Source of the DNA: an uncultured Planctomycetota bacterium
GTDB taxonomy: Bacteria; Planctomycetota; Planctomycetia; Pirellulales; Thermoguttaceae
Assembly (NCBI GenBank): GCA_902796885.1
Contig: CADBQY010000029.1
Location: 1-64,000 of the forward strand
DNA length: 64,000 bases
Direction: 5' to 3'
The notes below the pieces were generated by a model. It did not search any database, was not told the origin of the DNA, and was given only the letters and a program-made list of their open reading frames with translations. How positions within the stretch are numbered: position 1 is the first letter of the stretch; each line of letters opens with the position of its first letter. Of this stretch, positions 6,718-63,355 are shown piece after piece. The position numbers and the translations under genes are program-made.

Positions 6718-6824
6718 GTATTCAACGGTCAGGAGACGCTTAAAGCCTTGCAAATATCGGTTAATTTGGCAAAATAGAGCAGTATGTTTGTATACGGTAA
6801 CCCTGTTCCAAATACGAGGGCTTG

Positions 6825-9800
6825 ATGTTCGGTTCTGTTTTCATGAAAGTGTTTCGCTCGCATAGACCATCGTTCCACAAAGTGAAAAAAATTAAACGTT
6901 GTCTTTCACTTGAACCATTGGAAAATCGATTTCTTCTGGCGGTCATTTCAGGAAACGTTGCCGATATCAACAACTCTCTTCTTACGTCCCCAGCAATTCC
7001 AACCACCGGCGAAATTTCCTCGGCCGTTGACGTCGATATCGAAAAACTCAACAGCAACCCCAACTCTATCTTCTCAATCTATCTTGATTTTGACGGTCAT
7101 GTAACCGCAAACACCAACTGGAACACCATTTATAACGGAGGTGCTGATATCGTAACCCCTCGATTCACCCTAGATGGAAATGTCGACAAGGCCTCATTTT
7201 CCGTTGCCGAAAAAACGGCAATTTATGAGATTTGGCTCCGAGTCTCCGAAGATTATATTCCGTTCGATGTCAACGTGACGACAGTTGAACCACCCATGGA
7301 TGCATTTCTTAATGGCCGTGCGCAGCGGGTCGTGATCGGCGGAAAATACTCCGACTGGTTTGGTAGCGCCACAGGCGGAATTTCCTGGGTCGGAACATTT
7401 ACATCCAAGAGCGATATCCCGAATTTCGTCTTTTCGGAATCGCTCAACGGAAATATTAAGAATATTGCCGAAGTGGTCTCCCATGAAACAGGACACGCTC
7501 TAGGTCTAAACCATAAGGGAAACTCACAGATAAGCGACCAGCAAGAGTATTTCGAAGGAGCCAACGGTTGGGCCCCCATCATGGGAGCCTCTTATTACCA
7601 AGAGTTAACCCAGTGGTCGAAAGGAGAATATGTCGGAGCAAACAATACAGCCGACGAACTGCAAATTATTACTACTCAAAACGGATTCGGATATCGTGAT
7701 GATGATTTTGCGGATTCTTTCATCGATGCAACCCTTCTGAATATCGCGAACGGGATGGGAAACCTATCTGGACTCATCGAAAAAAATACCGATGTTGACT
7801 TCTTCTTCTTTGAATCTGACGGTTCACCTTTGAATTTTTTTATCGGAGGATTGACTGGCGTCACCAATCTGGATGTTTTGGTCACCGTCTATTCCGAAGA
7901 TCTTCAACCGATCTGCGTTTACAATCCGTCCGATTCTCTTTACGTTGAATTTACATTTGCCGAAGAAGCCGGTCGTTACTTTCTTTCCGTTGAAGGTACC
8001 GGCCTTGAAACAGATTGGTCGGGAATATACTCCGATTATGGTAGCCTTGGCGCTTACGTTATTCAAGTGGGCGAACCGGAAAGCCTGGTGGTCACGACGT
8101 TAGACGACTCTGTCGCCAATGACGGACTCCTTTCCTTGCGGGAAGCTGTTCTTCTCGCTTCTGACCGAACATCAATTCTTTTTGACGATTCGTTGGGTAA
8201 CGGAACAATATTCCTAACCGAAGGAGAAATTCTTCTCAACCGACGGGTTATCATTGATGCGTCTCTAAATGGCGGAATGACAATCGATGCCCAGGAAAAT
8301 TCCCGTATCTTTGAAGTCACGGGAAACGCGACGCTTAAAGGGCTTACCCTGACCAGAGGCGGTAAGGTTCAAAGCGGCGCCGCAATCTACAATAACAATC
8401 AACTCTCACTGATCGATTGCGTCGTCACCGAAAATGTCGCGATTGACAATGGCAATTATCTGGTCGGAGGAGGTGCTTTATTTAACGCAAAAGGAGGAGT
8501 CGCAACTCTCAATGGCTGTATGCTGATCGAAAACATCGGAAACTACGGCGGTGCAATTTACAACGCCGGAACACTTTCGATGACTGACACAATGCTGGTC
8601 GATTCGACTTCATGGCAACGCAACGGAGGCGCGGTTTATAATGAAGGATGCCTGACCAGTAACAAGACGCTCTTTTCAAATAACAACGCATTCATCGCCG
8701 AAGGACAAGTAGCCGGGGGGGGTGCTGTCTATAACAGCGACAATGGAGTGGCGTTTTTTATCAAGACGCAATTTAAGGCGAACTCGGCTACATTCGGCGG
8801 TGCAATTTTCAACTTTGGACAGTGCACCGTCGAAGATTCCGTGCTTGATGACAACGTCGCAAAGTATTACCGCGGGGGAGGAATTTACAACTACGCCGAT
8901 TTGACTGTGATTAATACTGTTTTCCGGAATAATATCGCGGCAAACCCGGGAAATCTCATGGTTGGCGGTGGCGCAATCTATAACACGAAGAACTCGACGG
9001 CCCAAATCTCGCAATCTCTTTTTTACGGAAATACAGGATATTTCGGAGGAGCTGTTGTTAATGCCGGTTCGATGTTCATTACAGCCTCAACCCTTACCAA
9101 AAACAATGCCGCCGGAGTTGGGGGCGGAGCGATCCTTAACGCCAATACTCTCTCAATCACGAACTCGATTCTTGTCGACAACACTTCAGCTGGAAGCTAT
9201 CCTGATATTTACCCATATCAAGGCGAGACATCCGGATCGTTCAACGTCACTTCTTTTGTTGATTGGAACATCGGAACAAATAATATTCAATGGAACGGGC
9301 TTCCTCTTTTTGAAAATCCGGATGAAGACGATTTCATCCCGATCTTCGGCTCACAAGCGATCGACGCCGGATCAAACGATTTGGTCGTCACAACAATGGA
9401 TTTAGCAGGGAGCGAACGGATTGTCAACAAGATTGTCGATATCGGCGCGTTCGAATATACTCATCATGGACCGATCAAACTAGAGACGCCAACTATAATC
9501 ACGGGGAACAATGGCATCTTTGTTTCGTACGGTGCTAATCGTCATGAGATAACCTGGTCTCCTTCTGAAAACGCATCGGGTTATGAGTTGGCTTATTCAT
9601 CCGATGATAATCAATGGAAGACGATTCGCACCAACGATACCAAGGCAATCGTAACATCCCTTTCTTATGGTGATAATATCGTCTATCGAGTCCGCGCGCT
9701 CGGGACGGAGTCGTATGCCGACTCGGAGTGGTCCATGTCGCGAACTTTCAATGTCTGTCCGATGGATATTAACGGTGACGGCGATATCTCAGGCGCCGAC

Positions 9801-10049
9801 CGGGTTTTCGTTATGTCTCACTGGTTCTCTGAAAAAGGAGACAATAATTATCGTCACTACTGTGACATCAACGGTGACGGCGATATTTCGAACTCTGATC
9901 TTTCATACCTCATTTCAAATTGGCTTTCGGAAACAGGAGATGAAGGCCTGGTCTATCCTCGATCCCTCGCTGTCGATATTGTATTCGGTAGCTATGACTC
10001 GTCGGAACCGATCGAACAAGAGCCAGTATTCTTTGATTCAATTACATAA
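6825..10049 (+). CDS. Exported metzincin-like protease with beta-helix repeats and a C-terminal dockerin
   Basis: A 1074-residue protein; the ATG at 6825 has GAGGG just upstream. The N-terminus carries the planctomycete export-type motif LEPLENRFLL (29-38) after a basic stretch. Residues about 85-265 form a zinc protease domain with metzincin signature HETGHALGLNH (220-230) and a probable Met-turn, PIMGA (251-255). Residues about 425-880 are glycine/asparagine-rich repeats (GGAIYN, GGAVYN, SGAAIYN) typical of a right-handed parallel beta-helix. A fibronectin-III-like segment follows (about 890-980). The last domain has two calcium-binding dockerin type I repeats, each with DINGDGDIS. Family knowledge: dockerins bind cohesins or act as calcium-stabilised modules; no cohesin is visible here. 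The role is likely extracellular adhesion or proteolysis at a surface. Convergent with the rhamnosidase gene. Confidence 0.85.
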   Translation: MFGSVFMKVFRSHRPSFHKVKKIKRCLSLEPLENRFLLAVISGNVADINNSLLTSPAIPTTGEISSAVDVDIEKLNSNPNSIFSIYLDFDGHVTANTNWNTIYNGGADIVTPRFTLDGNVDKASFSVAEKTAIYEIWLRVSEDYIPFDVNVTTVEPPMDAFLNGRAQRVVIGGKYSDWFGSATGGISWVGTFTSKSDIPNFVFSESLNGNIKNIAEVVSHETGHALGLNHKGNSQISDQQEYFEGANGWAPIMGASYYQELTQWSKGEYVGANNTADELQIITTQNGFGYRDDDFADSFIDATLLNIANGMGNLSGLIEKNTDVDFFFFESDGSPLNFFIGGLTGVTNLDVLVTVYSEDLQPICVYNPSDSLYVEFTFAEEAGRYFLSVEGTGLETDWSGIYSDYGSLGAYVIQVGEPESLVVTTLDDSVANDGLLSLREAVLLASDRTSILFDDSLGNGTIFLTEGEILLNRRVIIDASLNGGMTIDAQENSRIFEVTGNATLKGLTLTRGGKVQSGAAIYNNNQLSLIDCVVTENVAIDNGNYLVGGGALFNAKGGVATLNGCMLIENIGNYGGAIYNAGTLSMTDTMLVDSTSWQRNGGAVYNEGCLTSNKTLFSNNNAFIAEGQVAGGGAVYNSDNGVAFFIKTQFKANSATFGGAIFNFGQCTVEDSVLDDNVAKYYRGGGIYNYADLTVINTVFRNNIAANPGNLMVGGGAIYNTKNSTAQISQSLFYGNTGYFGGAVVNAGSMFITASTLTKNNAAGVGGGAILNANTLSITNSILVDNTSAGSYPDIYPYQGETSGSFNVTSFVDWNIGTNNIQWNGLPLFENPDEDDFIPIFGSQAIDAGSNDLVVTTMDLAGSERIVNKIVDIGAFEYTHHGPIKLETPTIITGNNGIFVSYGANRHEITWSPSENASGYELAYSSDDNQWKTIRTNDTKAIVTSLSYGDNIVYRVRALGTESYADSEWSMSRTFNVCPMDINGDGDISGADRVFVMSHWFSEKGDNNYRHYCDINGDGDISNSDLSYLISNWLSETGDEGLVYPRSLAVDIVFGSYDSSEPIEQEPVFFDSIT

Positions 10050-15201: not shown

Positions 15202-17676
15202 TCAATCATAGATCAGGAAGATTTGTCGGTACGCCATAAAGCGTTCGAAATCGGCTTTCCAAGTCGATTCCATCTCATTGAGAGTCGCTCCTTCCTTGAT
15301 CATTTTCAGAATCTTTTTGTTCATCAGAAGATGATTTGCACCTCGATCGCTGATATGCCCAGGGTAGGTCGCAATCAGCTCGCGCATAAGAGCCAACCCC
15401 ATCTTGACCGGTTCGAAGGCATCCCGATCGGTAATCTCAAAGCGTATCCCGGAAATTTCGACATTTTCAAATGGTCGGGCCGTCGGCGTATACGTAATCG
15501 GTTCAAAACGGACACCTGTCAACGGTCTTTCGGGAGTCGTTTCCCCATGGTCGGCAACCAACGCATTCATCTTAGCTGCCAAATCAACACCATCGATCCA
15601 TGCGGCGCCCATTAATTCAAATGGAGTGTTAGTTCCCCGCCCTACTGAATAACCGGTTCCCTCGGCCAGACAAACTCCAGGGTAAAGAGTTGCCGCGGCA
15701 AGACTACGCATATTCGGTGAAGGGTTCACCCAAGGAAGTCCTGTTTCATCAAAATAGAGCTTCCGTTTCCAGTTAAGAACAGGAACAATCGTCAGATCCA
15801 GGTGAAGCTTCTGCTTGTCGTTAATCATCAACGCAATCTCGCCAACCGTCATTCCGTGTCGGACAGGGATCTGATCGAAATTGATAAACGACTCCTCGCC
15901 CGGATCGGCCAAAGGACCGGCAACGGCCTCTCCGCCAATCGGATTAACCCGATCCAGAACCACGAAGCCGAGTCCGTTATCAGCCGCAGCCTGCATCGCC
16001 ATCCCCATTGTTGAGATGTAAGTATAGAATCGAGCACCAATATCCTGAATATCGAAAACGAGGGTATCAATTCCTTCGAGCATTTCTGGGGTCGGACGGC
16101 GAATTTCGCCGTAAAGGCTGTAAACCGGCGCACCGGTGTCGGGATCATGCGTATCACCGATATTACCCTGGTCGAGTTTCCCCGCAATACCGTGTTCCGG
16201 GCTGAAAAGCGCAACGATATCAAGACCGGCCTTTTTCATCAAAAGTCCAGTCGGAACGCCTTCTCGGCTGATTCCGGTATGATTGGTTACGAGGCCAATA
16301 TGTTTCCCAGCCAGAAGTCGGAAATCGGTATATTGGAGGACATCAATTCCGTTGAGCGTGACATCACTCGGGCACTCTTTAGAATGAATTTTCGCAACAT
16401 GACTCATCGCATCAGATCGGCGGGCATCTAGGTCGATCGGATCGCGCAAAGCGTCAACGGCAATCGCGCCAATTTTGTCAGCGCGACGATTCATAGCGTT
16501 GTTACGATGCTTCGGATGGAGACGGTTACCAAGGACGATCACAAAAAGATCATTGTCGGGATCGATCCAGAATGTGGTTCCCGTGAACCCCGTATGACCG
16601 AATGCCGAAGGAGAATAGTTCCAAGACCTTGCGGCCGTACCGACGCTGCGTCGTTTTTCCCATCCGAGACCGTGAACACCGCCGACCACCTTCCAAGGGT
16701 ATGTCCATAAATGCCAGGTTTCAGGTGAAATAATTTGGACCTTTTCACCGTTTTCTTTGGTAAGAGTCCCATGTCCCAGCATCATTGATGCAAAGACCGC
16801 CAGATCGGGCGCGGTCGTAAAAAGCCCGGCATTCCCGCCATGTCCTCCGATAATCCATGCCTGTGGATCGTGAACCACACCCTTGATCCAACCACGATTC
16901 TTGTCATACTCCGTCGTCTCACAACGGTTATACCAATCTTCGGCAGCCGTTCTTTGAGAGAGAGACGCTTCGCCGACTTTATCTTTGGGTCTAAATCCGG
17001 AATCGAACATCCCAAGTGGCCGATAAATATTTTCTTCTGCAAAATCGCCCAGCTTTTTACCCGAAAAAAACTGAACCATTTTTCCTAATATGAGAAAGTT
17101 TTGACAGATATACCTATAAGACGTTCCCGTTGGAGTCAGAAGCGGCTCGGCCAGTACGCGATCCCAGATCGCGTCAACCGTGGGAACGTGATAGTTGAGA
17201 AACCAAACCGGATTAACCCCTGACATATGTTCCATGCAAAGGCGAAACGTGACATTTTCCTTACCGTTTTGAGCGAATTCGGGCACATAACGGCAGATCG
17301 GATCGTCAAGTGCGTATGCGCCGCGATCAAAAAGAACGGCCATCGAAGTTGCCGTCGCTACGCATTTGGTAATTGAGGCCATGTCAAAAACCGTGTCGAC
17401 CTCCATCGGCAACCGTTCCGGTTCCACTTGACGGTCGCCGAAAGCTTTCAGATAGGCGAGACCGTCTTTTCGGCCGATGGCAATCACCACTCCCGACGTC
17501 TCATCGCCGGACATCATCTCCTCAGCCACCGCATCGACCCACTCAGTCAGTCGGGGATCAAAGTTCAGTTCAGTAGGCTTTTTAATCGGCAGGGAATAAG
17601 GTTCACTTCCGACCGCTATCAAAACAAAGCCGAAGAAAAAAACCGGTAATGAAAACCGTAAAAATTTAATTAACAT
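15202..17676 (-). CDS. Secreted beta-lactamase-fold hydrolase fused to NamZ-type exo-N-acetylmuramidase (DUF1343, GH171)
   Basis: An 824-residue exported fusion; the ATG at 17676 has GAGG upstream, then a signal peptide (FLRFSLPVFFFGFVLIAVGS). Residues about 38-425 are a class C beta-lactamase-like serine hydrolase with SITK (Ser101, Lys104) and a later HTGFTGT motif. Residues about 443-824 match DUF1343/NamZ: GLVTNHTG, FSPEHGIAG, FDIQDIGARFYTYI, LDRVNPIGG, WVNPSPNM, EGTGYSVGRGT. In Bacillus subtilis NamZ (YbbC) lies beside NagZ and the beta-lactamase-fold amidase AmiE (YbbE) in the muropeptide-rescue cluster. The fusion therefore reads naturally as an AmiE-like amidase joined to NamZ, releasing MurNAc from peptidoglycan fragments outside the cytoplasm. 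The family assignments are firm; the joint pathway is inference. Confidence 0.88.
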   Translation of the reverse strand: MLIKFLRFSLPVFFFGFVLIAVGSEPYSLPIKKPTELNFDPRLTEWVDAVAEEMMSGDETSGVVIAIGRKDGLAYLKAFGDRQVEPERLPMEVDTVFDMASITKCVATATSMAVLFDRGAYALDDPICRYVPEFAQNGKENVTFRLCMEHMSGVNPVWFLNYHVPTVDAIWDRVLAEPLLTPTGTSYRYICQNFLILGKMVQFFSGKKLGDFAEENIYRPLGMFDSGFRPKDKVGEASLSQRTAAEDWYNRCETTEYDKNRGWIKGVVHDPQAWIIGGHGGNAGLFTTAPDLAVFASMMLGHGTLTKENGEKVQIISPETWHLWTYPWKVVGGVHGLGWEKRRSVGTAARSWNYSPSAFGHTGFTGTTFWIDPDNDLFVIVLGNRLHPKHRNNAMNRRADKIGAIAVDALRDPIDLDARRSDAMSHVAKIHSKECPSDVTLNGIDVLQYTDFRLLAGKHIGLVTNHTGISREGVPTGLLMKKAGLDIVALFSPEHGIAGKLDQGNIGDTHDPDTGAPVYSLYGEIRRPTPEMLEGIDTLVFDIQDIGARFYTYISTMGMAMQAAADNGLGFVVLDRVNPIGGEAVAGPLADPGEESFINFDQIPVRHGMTVGEIALMINDKQKLHLDLTIVPVLNWKRKLYFDETGLPWVNPSPNMRSLAAATLYPGVCLAEGTGYSVGRGTNTPFELMGAAWIDGVDLAAKMNALVADHGETTPERPLTGVRFEPITYTPTARPFENVEISGIRFEITDRDAFEPVKMGLALMRELIATYPGHISDRGANHLLMNKKILKMIKEGATLNEMESTWKADFERFMAYRQIFLIYD

Positions 17677-17816
17677 GGTTTATGACCTCATTCATTTTCA
17701 ATCACGGGCAATCGCCTCGGAATCTCGAAGCATATAAATGATGATTACACATAAGACCATCTTAATAAGAACGAACTCGCTTGTCCAGAGTTTTCGAAAA
17801 TCTCCTCGATAAACAC

Positions 17817-17845
17817 TTGAAATCGGAATAAAAAACGGATACAAT
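17817..17845 (+). promoter_or_regulatory. Promoter of the first Gfo/Idh/MocA gene
   Basis: TTGAAA (17817-17822) and TACAAT (17840-17845) with a 17-bp spacer, 54 bp upstream of the ATG at 17899. Confidence 0.6.
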
Positions 17846-17898
17846 TGCTAAAGAGATCACAGAAACATCAGCATTCCGTAAAATAAAAAGAGGTTCCC

Positions 17899-19200
17899 AT
17901 GAGAACAAAATCATTTCGAAAGAACGCTTTCAGATCTATTGCTACGACGACAGCCCTTATGGCCGCACGAGTCCATGCCGTTGAAAACAACACCCTCAAA
18001 GTCGGCCTCATTGGATGCGGCAGCCGAGGTTGTGGCGCCGCGATCAATACCTTAGAAGCAGATCCGAACGTTGAGCTCTATGCGGTCGGGGATGCTTTTC
18101 GAACGAATGCTCTTGCCGGTCTCGAAGGATTGACCGAACAATTCGGTCAACGAATCAATGTCGCTCCGGATCGGATTTTCGAAGGACTTGACTCGTTTAA
18201 ACAGGTTATTCCCCTTTGCGATGTCATCCTTCTCTGCGAACCGCCGATCTTTCACGTTCGTTCACTCCGATATGCCGTTGAATCGGGAAAACATGTTTTT
18301 TGTGAAAAACCTGCCTGTTCAGACGTCCCGGGAGTCAAGAACATTCTCGAATCAACAGAAATCGCCCGAAAAAACGGCACCACACTCGTCTCAGGACTCT
18401 GTTGGCGGTATCATCCCAACGTCATCGAGATGGTCAATCGAGTCAAAGACGGTCAAATCGGTAGTATCGTCAGCGGCAAGCTCCTCTATTTGTCAAGTCA
18501 ACTCTGGAAACGCCCCCGCCAGCAAGGGGACACGGAAATGAAATTCCAGGTTCGCAACTGGTACAATTTCTCGTGGATTAACGGGGACTTCGTCGTCTCT
18601 CAACATGTCCATACGCTCGACAAGGCGTTGTGGGTCATGAATGATGTTGCTCCCGACGTCTTCTTTGCCCTCGGTGGGCGAATGCAACGAATTGAACAGC
18701 CCAACAACGGCGATGTTTACGATGCTTTCGCATCCTGTCTCGAATACAATTCCGGTGTAACCTTCTATTCCTATTGCCGTCAGCAAAACGCATGCTGGTC
18801 GAAAAACGAGGTGACCATTTCCGGTAGCAAAGGAACCGCTGAACTACTGAGCGGCGTAATAAGAGACTACAACGGCAACATAGTCTATCAGCAGGAAAAA
18901 GGCGCCCATGATATGTACTTGATTGAGCATCAAAAAATGTACGAAGCGATCCGTTCGGGAAATCCGATCAATAACGGTGACTATATGGCAAAGGCGACCA
19001 TGATGGGAATCGCCTGCCGCATGGCCTGCTATAGTGGCGATCGAATCACCTGGGATGAAGCCATGAACAGTGAGATGACGATGGAGCCGACCGGGTACAC
19101 TTGGAACGACATGCCATGGACCCTGCCTGACGAAAATGGTCGCTACTTGATACCGGTTCCGGGAGAGGGACGTCAATGGCATCAGATCGTTAGAAGCTAA
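17899..19200 (+). CDS. Gfo/Idh/MocA family oxidoreductase, tandem copy 1 (Tat signal degraded)
   Basis: A 433-residue NAD(P)-dependent sugar oxidoreductase-like protein with AGAGG before the ATG. The Rossmann motif GLIGCGSRGCG (about 36-46) and the family motif CEKPA (about 135-139) are clear. It is a close paralogue of the gene at 19342, alignable over its whole length. The N-terminus differs: copy 2 has a twin-arginine signal, while here the matching stretch is SFRKNAFRS followed by a short, weak hydrophobic part, so Tat export is doubtful. The shared ending ARVHA is kept, which indicates a decayed signal rather than a different protein. The substrate is unknown; relatives oxidise or epimerise sugars and inositols. 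Confidence 0.85.
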   Translation: MRTKSFRKNAFRSIATTTALMAARVHAVENNTLKVGLIGCGSRGCGAAINTLEADPNVELYAVGDAFRTNALAGLEGLTEQFGQRINVAPDRIFEGLDSFKQVIPLCDVILLCEPPIFHVRSLRYAVESGKHVFCEKPACSDVPGVKNILESTEIARKNGTTLVSGLCWRYHPNVIEMVNRVKDGQIGSIVSGKLLYLSSQLWKRPRQQGDTEMKFQVRNWYNFSWINGDFVVSQHVHTLDKALWVMNDVAPDVFFALGGRMQRIEQPNNGDVYDAFASCLEYNSGVTFYSYCRQQNACWSKNEVTISGSKGTAELLSGVIRDYNGNIVYQQEKGAHDMYLIEHQKMYEAIRSGNPINNGDYMAKATMMGIACRMACYSGDRITWDEAMNSEMTMEPTGYTWNDMPWTLPDENGRYLIPVPGEGRQWHQIVRS

Positions 19201-44307: not shown

Positions 44308-47300
44308 TCACTTCTTTTTCGCCGACGACTTCAAAAGCCAAAGGAGGCACGGCGAAGCGATAAAGAGCGAGCTGTATGTACCGACAATCACCCCCAGCGT
44401 AATAGCAAAAGCGAAAGTGTGGATTCCGGCACCGCCAAAAATATAGAGGACCAGCGCGACAAACAGCGTCGTCAACGAGGTCAAAATCGTTCGGCTCATA
44501 CATTGATTGATCGTCTGATCGACAATATCTTCATTGATCGTCACGTTTTTACCGGTAATCTCGCGCATTCGGTCAAACAGAACAATCGTATCGTTCAACG
44601 AGTACCCGATCAATGTCAGAATCGCGGCGACGGTCGGAAGACCGATTTTAAACTCAACGATTCCAATAACTCCAAGGTAAGGCGCAAGCCATTTACTCAG
44701 AGCCATAAATCCGAGTACGATCAGGACGTCGTGGATCAAGGCGACTGTCGCTGAAAACCCGAAAACGAGTTTCTTAAACCGGACGCCAATATAGACCACG
44801 ATACAGAACAAACTCCCAAGGAGAGCAAGCCCACCCTGCGTTCTGGCGTAACCGGCAACAGAACTGCCGATCACCTGCGACGATTCGAAGACCGGCCGAC
44901 CGGTTACATCATCGGCCACCCGTTGGGCAAGGAGTCCGACCAACGACTCGTCTTCGGTATCAAAGACAATGCGCCATCGACTGTGGACCTTCTCTCCCTT
45001 GACATCTTCGGGATCGGGACATTCTACGGTATACTTGAGATCCTCAAGTTTATTCTCGTCAAGAAATGCGGTCAGGTGGTCTTTAAAGTAACCGTCAACC
45101 TCTTCTTTGGACTGGGCCGGTTCAATGTCAAAATCAAAAAGAACGCTCTTTTTCACCTCGCCGATCGTCGAGCCGGGAACCGGCACATCTTCGGTTCGGA
45201 TATTTGCGAACGAGCAGTGACTGGTCACCAGATCATCGCCAAACGCCTTGCCAAGAACCGATTCGACTTGATGACGGTATTCTTCAGACTGAACATCGGG
45301 CGGGCAGGACGTACTGATCGAGAAACAACAATCGTCGGAAACCTTACTCCCCGAATGATCTTGTGTCAGCGAGAGTTTACTGACGGCAAGGTCGGGCAGT
45401 TCTTTCAAACTCGACCGGATCTCGCCGATTTGTTTCGGCTGATTAAAGAGAACTTGAACCTGAACGCCTCCGACAAAATCAATGTCGAATATCCCTTTCC
45501 CGCGGGCAAAAAGTCCGACAATTCCGATCACGATCAGAACGAGGGAAAGGACGATAAAATAGACTCTGGACTTCATGAAATGGATGTTTGTCTTCGGGAA
45601 CGGCTTGAGACCGGGAAGGATCGGATAGACACATCGAGTGCCGATCCACCCCTTCCGCTCGCAGGTTTCGAAGATGATTCGCGAGACGTAAGTTGCGGTA
45701 AACATACTGAACAGAACGCCGAGGAAAAGGGTAATCGCGAACCCTTTGATCTGCTCGCTCCCGACGCTGTAAAGAATAACCGCGGTCAGCATCGTCGTGA
45801 TGTTTGAGTCAAAAATCGCGGTAAACGCGCGCGAGAAACCGTTGCGAATCGCCATGCGAAGCGTCGCGCCGCCGGAAAGCTCGTCTCTGATGCGCTCAAA
45901 AATCAGAACGTTGGCGTCCACCGCCATACCGACGGTCAAGACCAAACCGGCGAGACCGTCGAGTGTAAACGCCGCGCGAAGACTGAGCATGACCATCATA
46001 ATCAACAGGAGGTTCATCAGAACCGCGAAAGCGGCGACACATCCTGCGAAACCATAGTACGCGATCATAAAGACGATCACAAGCAAACCGCCCCAGAGAA
46101 TCGAGTTCTTTCCGCGTTGGATCGTATCTTCACCAAGCGTCGGACCGGTCAGCATTCGTGTCACCGGTTCGTCGCTCAGCTGCGCCGGGAGGACACCGCT
46201 CTTCATCACTTTCAAAAGGTCGTCAACGTCACGGTTGATCCGGCGAACCGACTCCTCGGAAAGGTTATTCCCAAAAGTGATCACGCCGCGGCTTTCGATC
46301 TTGTCATTGATGGCCGGAGCCGAATAAAGACTGTCGTTCAGAATGATCCCAAGCTGTCGGCCGCGTGTTCGCTCGGCTCCTCGCTTATAGCGGTCGGTCA
46401 GGTGCTTCATTCGTTCGGCTCCGTCCCGATTCATCTCAAACTGGAGCTCCGGTTCTCCGCGGCTGCCGACTGACTTATTGACACGGGCCATATGTCTGCC
46501 ATAAACGTCATACAGATCGGTCAGCTCTAGGACAAGCACTTCAATCGTCTTTTCAGATTCCTGACCGTTTTCCGCGGCGGGCTGTACCGGCGCTTCACGG
46601 GTGACGACATCGGGCATCGTCCGCAGATCTTCCACCATCGTCGGATCAACGGGAACCCACGATCCGCCCAGAATGATACGGTCTTTCCCAATCGGTTCGG
46701 GAAGACGGATCAAATTATTATCCGCAAGGTCAGGGCGACGGGCAATATCAATCAGTTCCTTTTCTTCCGGCGCCTGGGTCGAAGCGAGGATTCGGAATTT
46801 CAGTTGCCCGGCTTCATTGACTTTCCGTTCAATACGTGCGATCTCGGCCTCATCGGCTTCGGGGATCGTGATCATGATCTCTTTATTGTTGCCGAGCTCC
46901 TGAATTTGGATTTCTCTCACCCCCCCCTGGTTGATACGTTCGGCCAGGACACGTTTGAGATCGTCCATCGTCTGAGCGTCAACACCTTTCTCGGCGGCTA
47001 CGGCACGCTCTTCGTCGGTCGCTTCGTCCGAAATCTTCTGCGTCACCTCATAAACCAAGATCGAACCGCCACGCAGGTCGATCCCCAGATTCAAGCGATG
47101 TCCCAAAAGCCCGTAAACGGTCGAAAAAAGCGCCAAGAAGAAGCAGAAGAACACAATGAAATATCTTCCTTTGTAGTCCTGCATCCGCCAGGCTTTCGCA
47201 AAATAGTTCGCCAGAAGCCAGGATACGAGAAAAATACCGATCACCGTCGCAAAAATGATCGATCCGCCAAGCTGGAGTTTTTTCGCCTGCGGAACGGGTG

Positions 47301-47628
47301 TCACGGTAATATCACTCGGTGAAATCTCGACATCGGGATTGTCTCCGTCAAAAGCGAGATCTTCGGTTGCCTGCGCGTCGCCGGTAGAATCGCTCTCTTC
47401 GGCAGAGACCTCATCGTCTTCAGGCGCCGATTCGACCGCCGTCTCCCCGACTGAGGAAAGCTCCTCAGCAGGAGCCTGATCCGATTGGGCGACGGCGGAC
47501 TGTTCGGTAGGCGCAGCTTGCGGATCATCCTGCGCAAACGCAAAGGGAGCCATAAGAAAGATCGCGATGGCTACGGAGCCGATGATCTGACAGAAAAAAC
47601 TACGAAATACTTGTTTCATCATGAACAT
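44308..47628 (-). CDS. secDF: Protein translocase SecD-SecF fusion
   Basis: An 1106-residue inner-membrane protein. A signal peptide-like start (IIGSVAIAIFLMAPFAFAQ) and an acidic Ala/Glu-rich stretch (about 35-100) precede the SecD part. SecD: a first helix at about 120-140, then NLGIDLRGGSILVYEV, the large periplasmic P1 domain, and the membrane block with GMAVDANVLIFERIRDEL (about 560-580). SecF starts near 690 with FDIDFVGGVQVQVLF and ends with LIGYSLNDTIVLFDRMREI. Fused SecDF is known in several phyla; it uses the proton gradient to pull secreted proteins out of SecYEG. It lies 48 bp after yajC and shares its transcript. Start codons at 47628 and 47622 are both possible. Confidence 0.95.
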   Translation of the reverse strand: MFMMKQVFRSFFCQIIGSVAIAIFLMAPFAFAQDDPQAAPTEQSAVAQSDQAPAEELSSVGETAVESAPEDDEVSAEESDSTGDAQATEDLAFDGDNPDVEISPSDITVTPVPQAKKLQLGGSIIFATVIGIFLVSWLLANYFAKAWRMQDYKGRYFIVFFCFFLALFSTVYGLLGHRLNLGIDLRGGSILVYEVTQKISDEATDEERAVAAEKGVDAQTMDDLKRVLAERINQGGVREIQIQELGNNKEIMITIPEADEAEIARIERKVNEAGQLKFRILASTQAPEEKELIDIARRPDLADNNLIRLPEPIGKDRIILGGSWVPVDPTMVEDLRTMPDVVTREAPVQPAAENGQESEKTIEVLVLELTDLYDVYGRHMARVNKSVGSRGEPELQFEMNRDGAERMKHLTDRYKRGAERTRGRQLGIILNDSLYSAPAINDKIESRGVITFGNNLSEESVRRINRDVDDLLKVMKSGVLPAQLSDEPVTRMLTGPTLGEDTIQRGKNSILWGGLLVIVFMIAYYGFAGCVAAFAVLMNLLLIMMVMLSLRAAFTLDGLAGLVLTVGMAVDANVLIFERIRDELSGGATLRMAIRNGFSRAFTAIFDSNITTMLTAVILYSVGSEQIKGFAITLFLGVLFSMFTATYVSRIIFETCERKGWIGTRCVYPILPGLKPFPKTNIHFMKSRVYFIVLSLVLIVIGIVGLFARGKGIFDIDFVGGVQVQVLFNQPKQIGEIRSSLKELPDLAVSKLSLTQDHSGSKVSDDCCFSISTSCPPDVQSEEYRHQVESVLGKAFGDDLVTSHCSFANIRTEDVPVPGSTIGEVKKSVLFDFDIEPAQSKEEVDGYFKDHLTAFLDENKLEDLKYTVECPDPEDVKGEKVHSRWRIVFDTEDESLVGLLAQRVADDVTGRPVFESSQVIGSSVAGYARTQGGLALLGSLFCIVVYIGVRFKKLVFGFSATVALIHDVLIVLGFMALSKWLAPYLGVIGIVEFKIGLPTVAAILTLIGYSLNDTIVLFDRMREITGKNVTINEDIVDQTINQCMSRTILTSLTTLFVALVLYIFGGAGIHTFAFAITLGVIVGTYSSLFIASPCLLWLLKSSAKKK

Positions 47629-56271: not shown

Positions 56272-57969
56272 ATGAGAAATATGTTTGTAAAGGAAACGAA
56301 GTTTTATCTCTTCGGAATCGGTCTTTTGCTCATCGGTGGGATTATCTTTACCGTCCCTGTGTTGGAAGCGCAAAATCGCTCCGCCGCGCAACGTCAGGGG
56401 GGGCTCCCTCTTCCGAGCCGCGGGGGCGCGCCAATACCGACCCCATCCGCTCTCCCTTCGCAACAGCTCGCCTCCCAAGCTCCGCAACCGGCGATGGGAA
56501 AACAGCGCGAATCATGCCTTCTGCGTTCGTCTCGAAAAGTCGGGACTACCGATATGGTCGAAATCGGCATCGAAGGAAACGGAACGGTAATCCAAACCCT
56601 TCTGGGGAGCGAAAGAGTTTCCCCATCCGACAAGATGGAATTGGTCGCGGGTTTCTGTTATGAAGAACGAATCCTCGAATGGAATCCCCTCGCTACAAAT
56701 CCGCATTTAAAGTCGATACGGCAATACACACAAGCCGGAATGCGACGAAACTTCCAAGGGGGAATCACGCGCCCTCTTTTGGACATTTCGCGTAAAAATA
56801 TCATCGTCGATTATGACGGTCAGTCCCTTTCGCTTTACTCGCCGGCCGGTCCTTTTAAAAATGACCAGTATCTCCTGGTTTCGGAACTCCCGATCAACTC
56901 GATCCTTCTTGATTATTTTCTGCCGAACAAAGAGGTGAAACTCGGCGAAGAATGGACACTCCCGACCAACGTCCTTCAAGCACTCCTGGGACTTGAATCG
57001 ATTGAAGCGAACACTGTCCGCTTCGTTCTGACTGCTATTGTCGATGATATGGCCGAGGTCGATCTCTATCTGACGGGAAATCAGAAGGACCCGCAAGGAA
57101 ACCCACTTCCGAGTACAATCCAGGGAGCTGCGCTTGGCGCAAGCATCGCGATGGACATTCAGGGTAAATATCAATTCGACCTGAAATCGAATCGTATGAC
57201 CTGGTTCGGAATGACGATCTCCGAAAAACGCACCGAGAGTCTGGTTGAACCCGGCTTGGACTGGAAAGGAACCATTCGAATCCGAATAGCTCCGATGGAA
57301 AACCCAGAAGAGCTGACCGATGACAAGCTGGCCGAACTGAACGTTCCTCCCACCGACGAATCGTTCAGCTTGATTTACAACGGCCAGAAAGGTCCGTGGA
57401 ATTTTCGCCATGGCCGAGACTGGCGGATGATCGAAGACGGCGAAACCGCTGCGGCTCTGACCCTGGTCGATCACGGTGACGGAATCGCCCAGTGTAATCT
57501 GATGTGGAACGGAAAGATTGATCTTAAATCGATCCCGACAATCTCCGCCTATCAAAACGAACTGCAAAAGGGACTCGGCGAGCAATTCGGCCAGTTCGTC
57601 GACGCTTCGGAATACTATGACCAGGAAGGGCGTCATATCATGTCGGTCGTCATTGACGGAAAATACGAGGACGTACCGTTCCGACGAATCTACTATCTCC
57701 TTACCGATCAATCCGGATATCAGGTTACCGTGATGTACGACATTGCAGCCGACAAACTTGACCGTTTCGGTGATTCGGGACGCGAGATTATTGAGACCCT
57801 CAACATTATCCCGCCACCCGAATCGGCGCCGACCGAAAATAATACCGCTGAGGACGAAAACAGGAATACGAAAACGGAGAAGAAAGACGGCAAAGACAAG
57901 GAGTCTCCCGCTGAACCCGCACCGGGAAATACCGATTCCGCCGAAGAAACAAAAAAAGACAATTCCTAA
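56272..57969 (+). CDS. Secreted or membrane-anchored protein of unknown function
   Basis: A 565-residue protein; AAGGA precedes the ATG. A signal-anchor (FYLFGIGLLLIGGIIFTVPVLEAQ) is followed by a Gln/Pro/Gly-rich stretch, then a globular part with repeated beta-rich units (e.g. VDYDGQSLSLYSPAG, GEEWTLPTNVLQALLGL) and no catalytic motif. The last 45 residues are low-complexity Lys/Glu/Asn-rich. I do not recognise the family; similar proteins of this shape are common in planctomycetes. The 3' 164 bp overlap the antisense tail of the tape-measure-like gene, but that overlap comes from the neighbour, not from this gene. Confidence 0.65.
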   Translation: MRNMFVKETKFYLFGIGLLLIGGIIFTVPVLEAQNRSAAQRQGGLPLPSRGGAPIPTPSALPSQQLASQAPQPAMGKQRESCLLRSSRKVGTTDMVEIGIEGNGTVIQTLLGSERVSPSDKMELVAGFCYEERILEWNPLATNPHLKSIRQYTQAGMRRNFQGGITRPLLDISRKNIIVDYDGQSLSLYSPAGPFKNDQYLLVSELPINSILLDYFLPNKEVKLGEEWTLPTNVLQALLGLESIEANTVRFVLTAIVDDMAEVDLYLTGNQKDPQGNPLPSTIQGAALGASIAMDIQGKYQFDLKSNRMTWFGMTISEKRTESLVEPGLDWKGTIRIRIAPMENPEELTDDKLAELNVPPTDESFSLIYNGQKGPWNFRHGRDWRMIEDGETAAALTLVDHGDGIAQCNLMWNGKIDLKSIPTISAYQNELQKGLGEQFGQFVDASEYYDQEGRHIMSVVIDGKYEDVPFRRIYYLLTDQSGYQVTVMYDIAADKLDRFGDSGREIIETLNIIPPPESAPTENNTAEDENRNTKTEKKDGKDKESPAEPAPGNTDSAEETKKDNS

Positions 57970-60733
57970 ACGCACACTTCTCCATAGTCTTAATTTGAAT
58001 TCGACAAATTTTTCTGACCTGGTTGAGCGCCGCCGCGTCGGTTTCTGCTGTATTTTGGGCTATGGCGGGCAGGTACTGGTCGAGGCGGCTCATGAGGTCG
58101 TCATGGTTTTGAGACTGATTATCTTTGAGTGAGTCGATCGCCATTTCAACGGGGTCTTTCATGTGGCCGAAGGCGGAGGCCTGGAAACGTTCCCAGGTTT
58201 CGGCCATACCTGATTTTTGTCCGACGTTTTCGTTCATGATGCGGTCGGCCATCATATCTTTCAGTTTTTTGTTGTTATCGAGGTCGGCGGATTCCATGGC
58301 CTGTTGATTTTTGAGTTGTTGCCGTTCGAACTCGGTGACATTTCCTCGGGACTCGAGTTGTTCTTGCATAACATCGGTGGCCGATCTTCCGTATGCGGTA
58401 GCGTTCGTGATTTCCGCAGAGAGTTGTTTATCGAGCATACGGAAATAGGCATCGCGTTGTTGTTTAACGGCATCGAGGTATGCCTGGAAGATTTTTGTAT
58501 TGTTTTGGAGTGCGAGGGCGTGTTCTTCTTGGATATTTCGAACTTGGAGTGAGAAGATTTCGGTTTTGAATTTCTTATCAAGGTCTACTTCTTCTCGGGC
58601 TTGGGCGGACTCGAGTTTTCTTTCGTCCTTTTTTCCGAGGATTTCAAGATCTTTATCGAGCTTATACTCGCTGGCGGCTTGTGCGTCGCCGGCATATCGC
58701 CGGGATGCGAGGACGGCGTCTCTTTGGAGTTCATCGCTCCGGTTTGCCATGATTTCGTAGAATTCTTCTCCGGTTTTTCTGTTACCGGTACCGAAGAGAC
58801 CGGTCATATCGGACTCGTATCCTTGTTTGACGGCATCGCGGAGGTTTTTGAGGAGTTCTTCTTGTTTTTTGACCTGTTCTTGGACGAGGGCGAGGGAGGC
58901 CTGTTGGTAGGAGAGCATTTTTTCGGCTATTTTTCTTTCTTCTTCGAGCCGTTTTTGTTCTTCTTCCGCCTGTTTTTTTGCGATGACGGCGGCCTGTGCT
59001 CCTTCTCTTGACCTATCTTCTTCGAACTCTTCTGCGTTTTTGACGGCGATGGTGATGCCGTTTTCGTTTTGGTAGACATAGTGATCGGTTTCGTTATCAT
59101 ATTTGATGAGACCGGACTGAACGCCTTTATTGAAATCGCCCTCGTAGACGGCTCCTGCGGCCATCTGAACCTGGTTTTCCGAGGAGTTTTTCATCCATTT
59201 TTCGCTGTCCTCTTTTATTTTGTTGATTCGGGCGGCGATTTCGGGTGCCATCGCTCCGACCGTTGTGGCGGAAAGGGTATCGGCGAACGACTCGTAGGCC
59301 GTGACGAACTCCTCAAAATCGGCCTTCACAGCGGCCATCGATGTCTCTCGGGCCATCTTGGCAGTAGAAAGGATGCTGGTGAGGGCACGCTGTTGAGTGC
59401 CTTTAGTAGACCAACCGATACCGCGTACGGCTGCTTTAACTGAATCGTCCGCCTCAACACCGCGTTCATCAACAATAGAACGCTGGCGAAACCCCAGAGA
59501 AAGCGCATTCAAAGAAGATTCAACAAAACCAGTTCTGAACTGGGCCGAATCCCTCACCTGTGCTTCTTGTTGGACGTATGTGTCGTAATGCTGTCTGGTT
59601 TCTTTCGCCTGACTTACCTTCTGTTTGAAGATTTCCACTTCCTTTTGGGCGGCCAGACGTTGTTTTTCGATGTTCTGAAGCCGTTCTTGCATGGCAAGAT
59701 CGGCTTCGTTCATTTTGGTTTTGGATTCGGCGAGGATACGGAGGTTTTCGAAACGTTTTCGGTCCATCTCCTCTTCTGCTTTGAACATTGTCTGACGAAG
59801 TTGGGATTCCTGCTGGATGCCGGTGATGGCGATCTTGTTGCGAAGGGTCTGGTGCTCCAACTCCTTCTTCATATCCCCTTCTTTTTTCTTTTGGTGCCGG
59901 TCCCAAAGGTCCTGTAAGGTTAAATATGCTATCTGAGCTGCAGAACCCCAACCAACACCTGCCAAAGCACGAGTTGCCCCAGACGCCATACCAGCAGCCC
60001 TCGTAAAACTACCACTTCTACTAACAGAGGAGGCAACTCGTCGGGCAGAAATTACGTTCTGGTTGGAAGTGGCTATCTTTGCTTGTGCCTCGGTAAGCGC
60101 TCTTGTATTTTGGGTCGAATACCTCGAAGCGCGATAAGTGTCTCTATAGGCCGTGCGCCGTGCTCGTTCGGCAAGTTCTTCGGGTCTGCTATAACCAGCA
60201 CGTCTCGCTCGCTGTAGTGTGTCATTGTATGCCCGTTGTGCGGCTTCGTTAGCGGCATCTGTGCTCTCTCTTCTTATTTTGTCAAGAAGCTCGTTTGCAT
60301 TGGTCCGTGCTTCCCTGGCTTTCTGTCGTGCTTCCTTTGTGGCCTCGCGGCGGTATACCTGTTGGGCGGCACGTAGCTTATCGCCTTTTGACCCCTCAGT
60401 TTCTCGATAGGCTTCTCGTGCTTTAACAAAAGCCTGCTTATTCGTCCTTCTGTCAGATCCGGCAAGCTCATTCGCTAACTCCTTATCTCTACGTTTATCC
60501 AGGTTATCGATAAGTTTGGACAGACCTTCGAGACCTTGCCTAAACTTAAATATTGCCGGAACCAATGTCATCAAGGTCACCCCCACTGTGTGTGATGCCT
60601 TAATCCACTGCCCATGGAACTGCAGTAGCTGTGCGAAGATCGGGGGCAGTTTTGCACCCGACATCGTAAGGTCGCGGACAAGGTCAAGCAGTTTTGAAGC
60701 CTGATCCTCATATTCGTTATTATCAAGAGCCAT
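57806..60733 (-). CDS. Long coiled-coil, tape-measure-like protein with a lost 3' end
   Basis: A 975-residue protein, almost wholly alpha-helical and rich in Lys, Glu, Ala, Arg and Gln. Residues about 20-75 are amphipathic and hydrophobic (VGVTLMTLVPAIFKFRQGLEGL), then come a long charged Arg/Ala stretch, a small hydrophobic segment (about 255-275, ALAGVGWGSAAQIAYLTLQDL) and coiled coils (about 290-400 and 590-830). This pattern and the small chaperone-like genes upstream match phage tail tape-measure proteins. The natural-looking part ends near residue 920 (DQYLPAIAQNTAETDAAA). The last 50 or so residues are Cys/Arg/Phe-rich nonsense from the opposite strand of the neighbouring gene, so the 3' end is truncated. 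No homologue could be searched; tape-measure identity is inference. Confidence 0.55.
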   Translation of the reverse strand: MALDNNEYEDQASKLLDLVRDLTMSGAKLPPIFAQLLQFHGQWIKASHTVGVTLMTLVPAIFKFRQGLEGLSKLIDNLDKRRDKELANELAGSDRRTNKQAFVKAREAYRETEGSKGDKLRAAQQVYRREATKEARQKAREARTNANELLDKIRRESTDAANEAAQRAYNDTLQRARRAGYSRPEELAERARRTAYRDTYRASRYSTQNTRALTEAQAKIATSNQNVISARRVASSVSRSGSFTRAAGMASGATRALAGVGWGSAAQIAYLTLQDLWDRHQKKKEGDMKKELEHQTLRNKIAITGIQQESQLRQTMFKAEEEMDRKRFENLRILAESKTKMNEADLAMQERLQNIEKQRLAAQKEVEIFKQKVSQAKETRQHYDTYVQQEAQVRDSAQFRTGFVESSLNALSLGFRQRSIVDERGVEADDSVKAAVRGIGWSTKGTQQRALTSILSTAKMARETSMAAVKADFEEFVTAYESFADTLSATTVGAMAPEIAARINKIKEDSEKWMKNSSENQVQMAAGAVYEGDFNKGVQSGLIKYDNETDHYVYQNENGITIAVKNAEEFEEDRSREGAQAAVIAKKQAEEEQKRLEEERKIAEKMLSYQQASLALVQEQVKKQEELLKNLRDAVKQGYESDMTGLFGTGNRKTGEEFYEIMANRSDELQRDAVLASRRYAGDAQAASEYKLDKDLEILGKKDERKLESAQAREEVDLDKKFKTEIFSLQVRNIQEEHALALQNNTKIFQAYLDAVKQQRDAYFRMLDKQLSAEITNATAYGRSATDVMQEQLESRGNVTEFERQQLKNQQAMESADLDNNKKLKDMMADRIMNENVGQKSGMAETWERFQASAFGHMKDPVEMAIDSLKDNQSQNHDDLMSRLDQYLPAIAQNTAETDAAALNQVRKICRIQIKTMEKCAFRNCLFLFLRRNRYFPVRVQRETPCLCRLSSPFSYSCFRPQRYYFRSAPIRVAG

Positions 60734-60769
60734 AAAACAAGCAATAAAAGCTAAAAGAAAAATGTAGAA

Positions 60770-61324
60770 CTAGGCTATCAGGAGATGCTTAAAACAGATG
60801 AAAGCCATCAACACGCAAGAAACCAACAACCTTAACACGTTGGTTCCGCGTGTTGTGTTGCAGGTATCAGTCCACAGAAGCGAAGCGAACACGCCGTACA
60901 TGTAAACAAGAATAATAGCCACGGTCTTCCACGGCACTATAACAGCAGCAATGATCACGGCCAGATCAAACAACCGATGCAAACCAATGTAGCCAAGGTT
61001 CAGCCAAATCCAATAAAAAGGAAGTCCCGGAAAACATACAAAGTGGACATAACAAGGATCACCACCATCCTCAAACAGTGTAAATATACACAAAAGGACA
61101 AGAACAGCACAGATTGTTACCAACAGGATGCAACCAAAATGATCGTTGCCCTCCATAAGGCCACAATGAGAAAAAACACCATCTACCGTAACCGACAGAA
61201 AACTACTCGTATCAAGTAGAAGGGAAATCAGTGTACAAAGAAAGAAAATCGAAAAAGAAAGAATGGAACCACGCCCGTAACCATCAAGACTCGGTGGCCA
61301 CAGTCCCCCCCGTTCCTTCGCCAT
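60770..61324 (-). CDS. Small multi-pass membrane protein of the island
   Basis: A 184-residue protein with about five hydrophobic helices (GSILSFSIFFLCTLISLLL, CILLVTICAVLVLLCIFTLF, FYWIWLNLGYIGLHRLFDLAV, TVAIILVYMYGVFASLLW, LLVSCVLMAFICF). The ATG at 61324 has AAGGAAGAG upstream and lies within the end of the preceding gene (41-bp overlap), so translation is coupled. Its position between chaperone-like genes and the tape-measure-like gene is unusual for a phage tail module. Family not recognised. Confidence 0.6.
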   Translation of the reverse strand: MAKERGGLWPPSLDGYGRGSILSFSIFFLCTLISLLLDTSSFLSVTVDGVFSHCGLMEGNDHFGCILLVTICAVLVLLCIFTLFEDGGDPCYVHFVCFPGLPFYWIWLNLGYIGLHRLFDLAVIIAAVIVPWKTVAIILVYMYGVFASLLWTDTCNTTRGTNVLRLLVSCVLMAFICFKHLLIA

Positions 61325-61781
61325 CTGGCTCTTCCTTCGTTTCTTCATTTACGGAATCACCCAGATCAACCGGTAATTCTGCTTCTCCCCCGTAGGCGGC
61401 ATTCATCATATCGATAATGTTTTTCAGACCTTCTTCGGTCAGTACGCCATCCGGATATATGATCTTAAAATACTCGTCAAACGTTAAACCGGGGTTGTCA
61501 ATAAGCTGATAACCCAACCGAGCAAAACCCTGAATGTCCGAAAGCAAAATGTCTCGGCCCTCCCCCTCCTGGAACGTCAACGTAGCGGCCCTCGATAAAG
61601 CCGCCAACCGAAGCTCCATCTTCTCCTGCTCGCCCAAACCAAGACAGGCCTCCCGAACATTCTCCATATACTTCAAACGGATCCACCGGTTCACCGCCGT
61701 ATGATCGTCAACACCATACGCCCGAACCAAAACATTCGTCCCGTCCGGTAAAGTAAACGGATATTTCTTTACGTCCATCAT
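61284..61781 (-). CDS. Tail-assembly-chaperone-like protein 2 (small, acidic C-terminus)
   Basis: A 165-residue protein beginning MMDVKKYPFTLPDGTNVLV, helical in the middle, with a low-complexity acidic tail (about 135-165). The motif FKIIYPDGVLTEEGL (about 108-122) matches LRELIFPNGLTEESV in the gene upstream. AGG lies near the ATG. Size, charge and position just upstream of a tape-measure-like gene fit a phage tail-assembly chaperone. This is inference from context; no direct family motif is known to me. Confidence 0.45.
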   Translation of the reverse strand: MMDVKKYPFTLPDGTNVLVRAYGVDDHTAVNRWIRLKYMENVREACLGLGEQEKMELRLAALSRAATLTFQEGEGRDILLSDIQGFARLGYQLIDNPGLTFDEYFKIIYPDGVLTEEGLKNIIDMMNAAYGGEAELPVDLGDSVNEETKEEPDGEGTGGTVATES

Positions 61782-61837
61782 TATACCTATTCAACCCCTC
61801 TAAGCAAGTCATTAAACATAAAAAAATCGGAAAATTT

Positions 61838-62623
61838 TCACTGGCTGGTCTGACGCGCCTTCCACGCCTCATACTCCTCCGGACTGTTAAAATGAATAAC
61901 CCCAGGCTTCGGACTCGGTGACGCTTCCGCCCCCCTCGCCTCCAACGATGCCTTGCTCTGGTGAATCATCGCGTCAATGTCCTCATAATGCTCCCGCTCC
62001 TCCGGGAACATGTAACCGAACCAAAACGCCTGGTAATCCGTCAGGTCCAAAATTTGATCGTACGTCCAGTGATACTTCTCCGCCAACATATGGTAAATCC
62101 GTGCTTCGCTCTCCTCCTTCGTCGTCTCATAACGAGGCTTCTTCTCAACCACCTTCAACTCCGGTACCGGCGGCAAATCACGCCACACCGACCGCTTCAT
62201 CTCCGTTACCACGTCAACAGACTCCTCCGTCAGGCCGTTCGGAAATATCAACTCCCGAAGACGATCCTCCTCAACAACACCGCGAGTTAAAAGAACCGCC
62301 AGATGAAGAAGCGCGTCGGCGTTGCTCCACAATAAACGGTACCCTCGACCAGAGGAACCGTTTATCCCGGCAATAATGTCAGATAAACCGGCAACGAACT
62401 CCTCCCGCTCACCAGGCGGGAGGAGTTCGACCTGATCATGATACTCCTTCACCACCCGAGACTTCAACCACATGTCCATATCCAATACGTCACGAAGCCG
62501 AAGCGGATAAATCAACAAAACCGCGTCCTTGTAAAAATAAGGCACTGGCACCTGTGCCAGTGCCGCTGAATGGGGATATGGGAAAATCATGGGATTCAAG
62601 TAAATAGTTGTTGCGATAGACAA
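61838..62623 (-). CDS. Tail-assembly-chaperone-like protein 1
   Basis: A 261-residue protein. A TTG start at 62623 is preferred because GGGAGAAAGG lies about 9 nt upstream; an ATG at 62590 lacks a ribosome site. After a short hydrophobic N-terminus the chain is mostly helical: LRLRDVLDMDMWLKSRVV, the motif LRELIFPNGLTEESV (about 125-140), and a C-terminal half with WTYDQILDLTDYQAFWFGYM. The C-terminus is charged. It shares the (I/L)xP(D/N)G-(V/L)TEE motif with the next gene, so both may descend from one duplicated gene. Two strong inverted repeats lie inside the coding sequence. Role unknown; a tail-chaperone role is inferred from position. Confidence 0.45.
   Translation of the reverse strand: MSIATTIYLNPMIFPYPHSAALAQVPVPYFYKDAVLLIYPLRLRDVLDMDMWLKSRVVKEYHDQVELLPPGEREEFVAGLSDIIAGINGSSGRGYRLLWSNADALLHLAVLLTRGVVEEDRLRELIFPNGLTEESVDVVTEMKRSVWRDLPPVPELKVVEKKPRYETTKEESEARIYHMLAEKYHWTYDQILDLTDYQAFWFGYMFPEEREHYEDIDAMIHQSKASLEARGAEASPSPKPGVIHFNSPEEYEAWKARQTSQ
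62396..62428 (-). repeat. 13-bp inverted repeat inside the first island gene
   Basis: GAACTCCTCCCGC and GCGGGAGGAGTTC form a perfect stem with loop TCACCAG; one further pair (C-G) extends it. It codes for VELLPPGEREEF, so it may be fortuitous, but the stem is unusually strong for coding sequence. Confidence 0.5.
62541..62564 (-). repeat. 11-bp inverted repeat near the start of the first island gene
   Basis: GGCACTGGCAC-CT-GTGCCAGTGCC is a perfect palindrome with a 2-nt centre, about 60 nt downstream of the start codon. In the mRNA it could fold near the ribosome-binding area. Confidence 0.5.
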
Positions 62624-62730
62624 AAACTTGAACCTTTCTCCCGTTTAGCAGAAATAGTAATAACAAATACTACAGAAAAATTACCCAACTTACCAGGATT
62701 GCATGACGGTACCGTTCGCGTTTTAGAAAA

Positions 62731-62973
62731 TCTATAGAAAGAAGGTTGATGAATGAAATCCTGAACCGATGTTTTTTTCTTTGGTTCCTGTTTCGTGACG
62801 GGTTTCCCATCTTTAATAACTATTTTGATGATCTCCCCTCCGCTAAAAATTTCTTCTTATTCTGTGAAAACTTCTGATCCTCCCCATTTTCCCAAATAGA
62901 TTTTCCTTCGCTTGATTGAAATAGATGTCAAATCTCGATCTTTCCGGTGTTGAAATTGAGGAAGTTTTTTCAT
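62731..62973 (-). pseudogene. Tyrosine-recombinase (integrase) N-terminal remnant
   Basis: The ATG at 62973 has a strong ribosome site (AAAGGAG). The first 38 residues (HRKDRDLTSISIKRRKIYLG) resemble the start of planctomycete phage integrases, where an H-K/R...YLG-x-(Y/W)-G pattern opens the arm-binding domain. A TAA follows at 62857-62859 where relatives tend to have Tyr. In the same frame about 42 more codons continue in integrase-like style (EIFSGGEIIK, then KKKTSVQDFI), after which similarity stops. The catalytic domain is absent. It sits beside the 3' end of tRNA-Leu and reads away from it, the usual place of an integrase. The assignment is by pattern memory only. Confidence 0.45.
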
Positions 62974-63098
62974 TAGTTTGGACTCCTTTTTGGATCTCGG
63001 TTTGGGTCTCAAATGACTTTTCGATGGGAGTCCAGATTGAATGCCAAAGGAGAATAAAAAACGCCCAAATGCCTTAAAAATAGACGTTTGAGCGCTAA

Positions 63099-63182
63099 TA
63101 CCGGATCTCGGACTCGAACCGAGACGCCCTCGCGGGCAATGGATTTTGAGTCCATCGCGTCTGCCAATTCCGCCAATCCGGC
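63099..63182 (-). tRNA. tRNA-Leu (anticodon CAA)
   Basis: On the minus strand an 84-nt cloverleaf with acceptor stem GCCGGAT/ATCCGGT, a long class II variable arm (TGCCCGCGAGGGCGT) and anticodon loop CTCAAAA (anticodon CAA, window 63146-63148), reading UUG. The discriminator is A; CCA is not encoded. It flanks the island at 57970-62973. Confidence 0.95.
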
Positions 63183-63355
63183 AAGGAACAACAACCACAT
63201 TCTAAAACAAAGAACCGATTTTGGAAGGGGGCGTCATTTTCAAAAAACTCTCTTGCTATAAGACGCCGGAAAGATTAAACTCCCCCAGGAGTTAATATAG
63301 AGGATCCGAGCGATCCTGAAATTCAATGTTTACCGGATAATTACGAGTCGATCAC

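Follow-up and report, generated by a model that had tools for sequence, protein, structure and literature searches.

Locus and features

The window is the whole 64,000-nucleotide stretch that was analysed, and covers bases 1-64000 of a contig of 72.6 kb. The draft genome to which the contig belongs, planctomycete to judge by the flanking genes and the integrase type, measures 3.14 Mb, lies in 215 contigs and is 81% complete. The interval under study is 57970-62973, for which the coordinates, strand and gene inventory given by the first-pass annotation were essentially right. All genes of the element are on the minus strand, the strand of tRNA-Leu(CAA), and point away from the 3′ end of the tRNA. 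The features are listed from the tRNA towards the opposite junction, with the basis of each in brackets.

63098-63183, minus strand: tRNA-Leu (anticodon CAA), intact, the presumed integration site (ARAGORN and Rfam)
62737-62973, minus strand: relic of a tyrosine recombinase N-terminus (MKKLPQFQHRKDRDL..KRRKIYLGKWGGSEV), with one internal TAA and the remainder of the gene absent (homology to intact integrases)
61838-62623, minus strand: long tail-assembly-chaperone-like protein, 261 aa, with a TTG start behind GGGAGAAAGG (paralogy with the 165-aa protein; codon usage outside the host range)
62018-62101, minus strand: chaperone-extension-like segment RIYHMLAEKYHWTYDQILDLTDYQAFWF, residues 175-202 of the 261-aa protein (match to a 52-codon ORF of genome G398)
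61284-61781, minus strand: short tail-assembly-chaperone-like protein, 165 aa (paralogue of the 261-aa protein; codon usage outside the host range)
60770-61324, minus strand: multi-pass membrane protein of about 184 aa, its start overlapping the end of the 165-aa gene (hydropathy; codon usage below the host range)
57970-60733, minus strand: tape-measure-like protein of about 917 aa, 3′-truncated (length, helical composition, position after the chaperone-like genes)
57970-58040, no strand: left junction of element and host, without a tRNA-derived direct repeat (frame analysis; repeat search with shuffle test)

The adjoining tRNA-Leu had thus been recognised correctly, and the interval 57970-62973 holds, as was also claimed for it, no capsid, terminase or lysis genes. 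Genes for a major tail protein, distal tail or baseplate are likewise missing between the tRNA-Leu and the host gene, and no sheath, baseplate or spike gene was recognised by reading the listed ORFs of the contig.

Integrase relic

The relic starts with an ATG at 62973, 124 bp from the 3′ end of the tRNA-Leu, and its frame reads MKKLPQFQHRKDRDLTSISIKRRKIYLGKWGGSEVFTE*EEIF from there. The proposed integrase-like fragment is real and homologous to recombinase N-termini: besides its own genome, where no second copy is found elsewhere, it matches ten genomes at E ≤ 0.01 among the 119 family genomes searched, with a best value of 2e-6. The matching frames are mostly 400-480 aa long and carry the motif near their N-termini, and the intact relatives that were scanned match Phage_integrase PF00589 and phrog_1. 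A tRNA-Ala or tRNA-Arg gene stands just upstream in 8 of the 13 other loci of this type of integrase, and in seven of the eight relatives measured the integrase starts 93-119 bp from the tRNA 3′ end, compared with 124 bp in the window. The relic thus places a tyrosine integrase gene beside a tRNA 3′ end, as in tRNA-integrated prophages. The ORF at 62857-63198 around the relic has an odd look because its frame merely reads on through the tRNA-Leu.

A further N-terminal fragment of the same integrase type was observed in another member of the genus (L049, G004:C1:80000-99500, positions 15969-17920), where a probable antitoxin gene, AbiEi, comes directly after it, together with the AbiEii toxin gene (PF08843), so that this island carries a toxin-antitoxin pair.

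Chaperone-like pair

The two small proteins described earlier as sharing motifs are paralogous over most of their length. Residues 28-173 of the 261-aa protein align collinearly with residues 8-153 of the 165-aa protein at a local score of 80, compared with 38.6 +/- 7.4 for shuffled sequences, and 0 of 1000 shuffles reach 80; plain BLASTP does not detect the relationship. The 261-aa protein has an additional C-terminal part, and within it RIYHMLAEKYHWTYDQILDLTDYQAFWF matches RLLGQLAERYHWTPSELLTLTDRDVIWW of the planctomycete genome G398 with a score of 79 (shuffles 26.6 +/- 4.3). The E value of this match is 0.007 for one genome and alone is not significant over 392 genomes; the match carries weight because of its location, in a 52-codon ORF between the Phage_TAC_7 chaperone gene (E 1e-5, above the gathering score) and the tape-measure gene (PHROG match, E 2e-32) of a prophage. 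The single-sequence fold of the 261-aa protein has a mean pLDDT of 42 and was set aside.

The two proteins are probably the long and short forms of a tail chaperone, produced from two genes, as their alignment and the additional segment suggest. No slippery site linking a short and a long form was found, the long form being one uninterrupted gene, and the frames downstream of the 165-aa gene contain the membrane ORF in one frame and nothing chaperone-like. At the end of the 165-aa gene seven G stand in a row, and a +1/-2 shift there would lead into the membrane ORF; the shift of phage Mu is -2. Such a frameshift was not adopted for the 165-aa gene, since the membrane ORF has a start and a Shine-Dalgarno sequence of its own.

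Membrane protein and tape-measure-like protein

Hydropathy bears out the multi-pass membrane protein, with four hydrophobic regions of which at least one is long enough for two passes. Its probable start is the ATG at 61324 behind AGGAAG, inside the 165-aa gene, and the gene stands between the chaperone-like genes and the tape-measure-like gene. Its presence in a tail module had been called unusual; it is mildly notable, and becomes less odd with the small membrane ORF that occupies the same place in the related island L048 described below.

The long tape-measure-like protein is also real, with 917 residues of helical composition (5.3% Pro+Gly; rich in A, E, R, Q, L and K), but its 3′ end is missing. 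Reading on in frame, the first stop comes only at 57806, some 160 bases into the antisense strand of the host ORF 56272-57969, which places the cut in the gene at about 57970-58040. Judged by its homologues in G002 and G006, the host ORF itself is intact. The description of the island as decayed therefore applies to the integrase and to the 3′ end of the tape-measure-like gene, both visibly broken, and not to the chaperone-like genes and the retained part of the tape-measure-like gene, which are open. Because the chaperone-like genes are still open, the decay would be recent or incomplete.

Codon usage and homology searches

The codon-usage reference consisted of the 31 host ORFs in the window (mean log score 0.074, SD 0.023, minimum 0.015). 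The 261-aa gene (-0.082), the 165-aa gene (-0.046) and the membrane gene (-0.008) all fall outside the host range, and the tape-measure-like gene (0.038) falls within it, so that three of the four retained genes have the non-host character that had been suspected when they were found unlike the surrounding housekeeping genes.

In Pfam and PHROGs all four retained proteins stay below the family thresholds; this includes matches to DUF4919, CCSMST1, WH2 and phrog_4810 at E of about 0.01-1, which were taken as chance. The 165-aa gene has no match in the 118 other genomes of the family, six other members of the genus included, and the 261-aa gene is absent from the relatives searched, again with six of the genus among them. 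A search of 392 phylum genomes gave no credible homologue, the extension motif aside; its weak matches in G337, G385 and G325 were not accepted as relatives. In the genomes searched, none of the four retained genes has a credible homologue. Peptide-pattern scans found no relatives of the four proteins in viral contigs and none of the 261-aa protein in genome contigs, and tblastn found none in phages and plasmids. The membrane protein had no homologue in Pfam, PHROGs, viral contigs or phages and plasmids. The genome search for the tape-measure-like protein used its last 277 residues only as query; a match in G668 was rejected as a relative, its surroundings being flagellar and host genes.

Attachment site

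The best match to a direct repeat of the tRNA 3′ end at the left junction has 11 of 12 bases and does not exceed shuffled sequence. The missing att repeat is expected if the far end was deleted, and for this reason only the status of a remnant is claimed. In G002 and G006 the flanking genes are on separate contigs, the tRNA-Leu(CAA) of G002 has other neighbours than in the window, and the gene order around tRNA-Leu is not conserved in the genus.

Parallel loci in related genomes

Locus L048 (G105:C14, 12392-17411) is a second decayed tail island, beside a tRNA-Arg in a genome of the same family. Its genes all lie on one strand and begin with an integrase whose frame is broken. Next come a 771-aa ORF that may be of a defence type, a chaperone (phrog_344, E 1e-5), a tail protein of 107 aa (phrog_337, E 3e-5), an ORF of 87 aa containing a hydrophobic segment, and fragments of a tape-measure gene, after which a host gene follows. 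It shares with the window the same integrase N-terminal arm near a tRNA 3′ end, a chaperone, a small membrane ORF and a truncated tape-measure gene; the two islands agree in gene order and in their fate.

The loci L043/L044, likewise of the same family, resemble the window in the integrase N-terminal arm, the chaperone gene or genes and the tape-measure gene. In L044 (genome G099) the relic-type integrase is accompanied, on the other strand, by a D12-like DNA methylase (by reading), three ORFs and an 874-aa tape-measure-like gene, to which the tape-measure fragments of L048 are related (score 135 vs 34 +/- 5). Two paralogous small proteins of L044 (mutual score 204 vs shuffles 32.6 +/- 6.3) match the phrog_344 tail assembly chaperone at E 1e-10 and 3e-6, and further tail- or connector-like ORFs are present. 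Unlike in the window, the tail genes of L044 face the integrase. The chaperones of L044 and L048 are not alignable with those of the window beyond chance, and the tape-measure proteins only marginally.

Interpretation

The island is very probably the remnant of a prophage at tRNA-Leu which deletion has cut down to part of the tail module. This reading is favoured by the homology of the relic and its tRNA-adjacent relatives, the foreign codon usage, the absence of the genes from relatives and the chaperone-like pair with a long helical protein; it is favoured also by the extension match in G398, the prophage at L044, the parallel relic beside tRNA-Arg at L048 and the truncation of the last gene against host DNA. 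Against it stand the host-like codon usage of the tape-measure-like gene, the open state of the chaperone-like genes, and the outcome that neither an att duplication nor a syntenic empty site was found. As for a tail module, the paralogous pair, the long helical protein and the extension-like segment are present, with no profile match above threshold; the tail assignment draws on the architecture, one 28-residue match and the parallels, and the chaperone and tape-measure functions of the retained genes are putative.

The following course of events is proposed. A tailed phage would have inserted at the 3′ end of tRNA-Leu(CAA) by means of its own tyrosine recombinase. In this ancestral phage the 165-aa short chaperone and the 261-aa long form, which adds an extension to the shared domain, would have coated the tape-measure protein, the one that sets the tail length, and recruited the tail-tube subunit, the short and long forms being supplied by two paralogous genes and not by one frameshifting gene. 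Deletions may then have removed most of the integrase, all that lay between it and the tail chaperones and, at the opposite end, whatever lay beyond the tape-measure gene, the far attachment site included, and the outcome would be a presumably inert prophage remnant.

The first-pass annotation had offered, as the alternative to a prophage remnant, part of an undescribed contractile or tail-like system. Of such a system only the chaperone-like, membrane and tape-measure-like genes would be left, and ordinary tail modules are known in the family and the phylum, so that this proposal finds no support.

A tail-derived particle domesticated and kept by the host, tailocin or gene-transfer-agent-like, with its other genes elsewhere in the genome, would accord with the open chaperone-like genes and retained tape-measure part and with the host-like codon usage of the latter. 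It is nevertheless very unlikely: the tape-measure gene has no 3′ end, genes for a major tail protein, sheath, baseplate or lysis are lacking in the vicinity, the integrase at the tRNA is broken, and neither the six other members of the genus nor the rest of the family has the 165-aa gene, which would not be expected of a system maintained by the host. The draft state of the genome, in 215 contigs, and a left junction that cuts a gene without an att repeat could also come from a metagenome-assembly chimera, in which a phage contig was fused to a host contig at about 58.0 kb and the true element is longer; we give this little credence, since host genes stand on both flanks within one 72.6 kb contig, the right junction has the canonical tRNA-integrase form and the integrase itself is decayed. 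An integrative island or phage satellite with tail-like cargo, which was never a full phage, finds a precedent in the integrase fragment of the same family adjoining the non-phage AbiE genes in G004, but is most improbable, as a chaperone-tape-measure tail core alone is of little use to a satellite, and phage tail genes accompany this integrase type in the relatives L044 and L048.

Chaperone forms and value of the locus

Apart from the short and long chaperone genes, the island considered as a prophage remnant is ordinary genome decay. Tail chaperones elsewhere exist as a short form and a longer, extended form made by frameshifting, and gpG and gpGT bind the tape-measure protein (PMC5009743). 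The window resembles gpG/gpGT of lambda, E/E' of P2 and 41/42 of Mu in having a short and a longer protein with a common N-terminal domain before the tape-measure gene, the longer one with an extension-like segment as in long forms of the gpG/gpGT type; it differs from them in having two paralogous genes in place of one gene with a programmed frameshift, and in lacking a Pfam or PHROG match. The principle of two genes is already known, as short and long chaperones from two genes without frameshifting are reported for T4-like phages (Vladimirov, Gautam and Davidson 2022, as cited in PMC10885494). The likeness to the T4-like pair is one of description, two genes without frameshifting in both, and the window differs in being a truncated planctomycete prophage with the long gene first.

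It is conceivable, and we suggest it tentatively, that phages of this planctomycete type make their chaperones from two paralogous genes, the long one with an in-frame extension domain and the short one overlapped by the start of the membrane gene, as a lineage-specific alternative to frameshifting. If the paralogue pair holds in intact relatives, it would be an independent case of two genes replacing a conserved programmed frameshift.

The locus shows clearly how a prophage decays beside a tRNA, in a phylum from which few prophages have been described. The window, L048 and L044 can be used together as handles for prophages that are missed by current family libraries.

Two other features of the window were recorded. 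Positions 6822-10049 encode a large protein in which beta-helix-like stretches recur and whose C-terminus bears two DxNGDGxIxxxD repeats resembling a dockerin domain, and at 44308-47628 SecD and SecF are apparently fused in one 1106-aa ORF.
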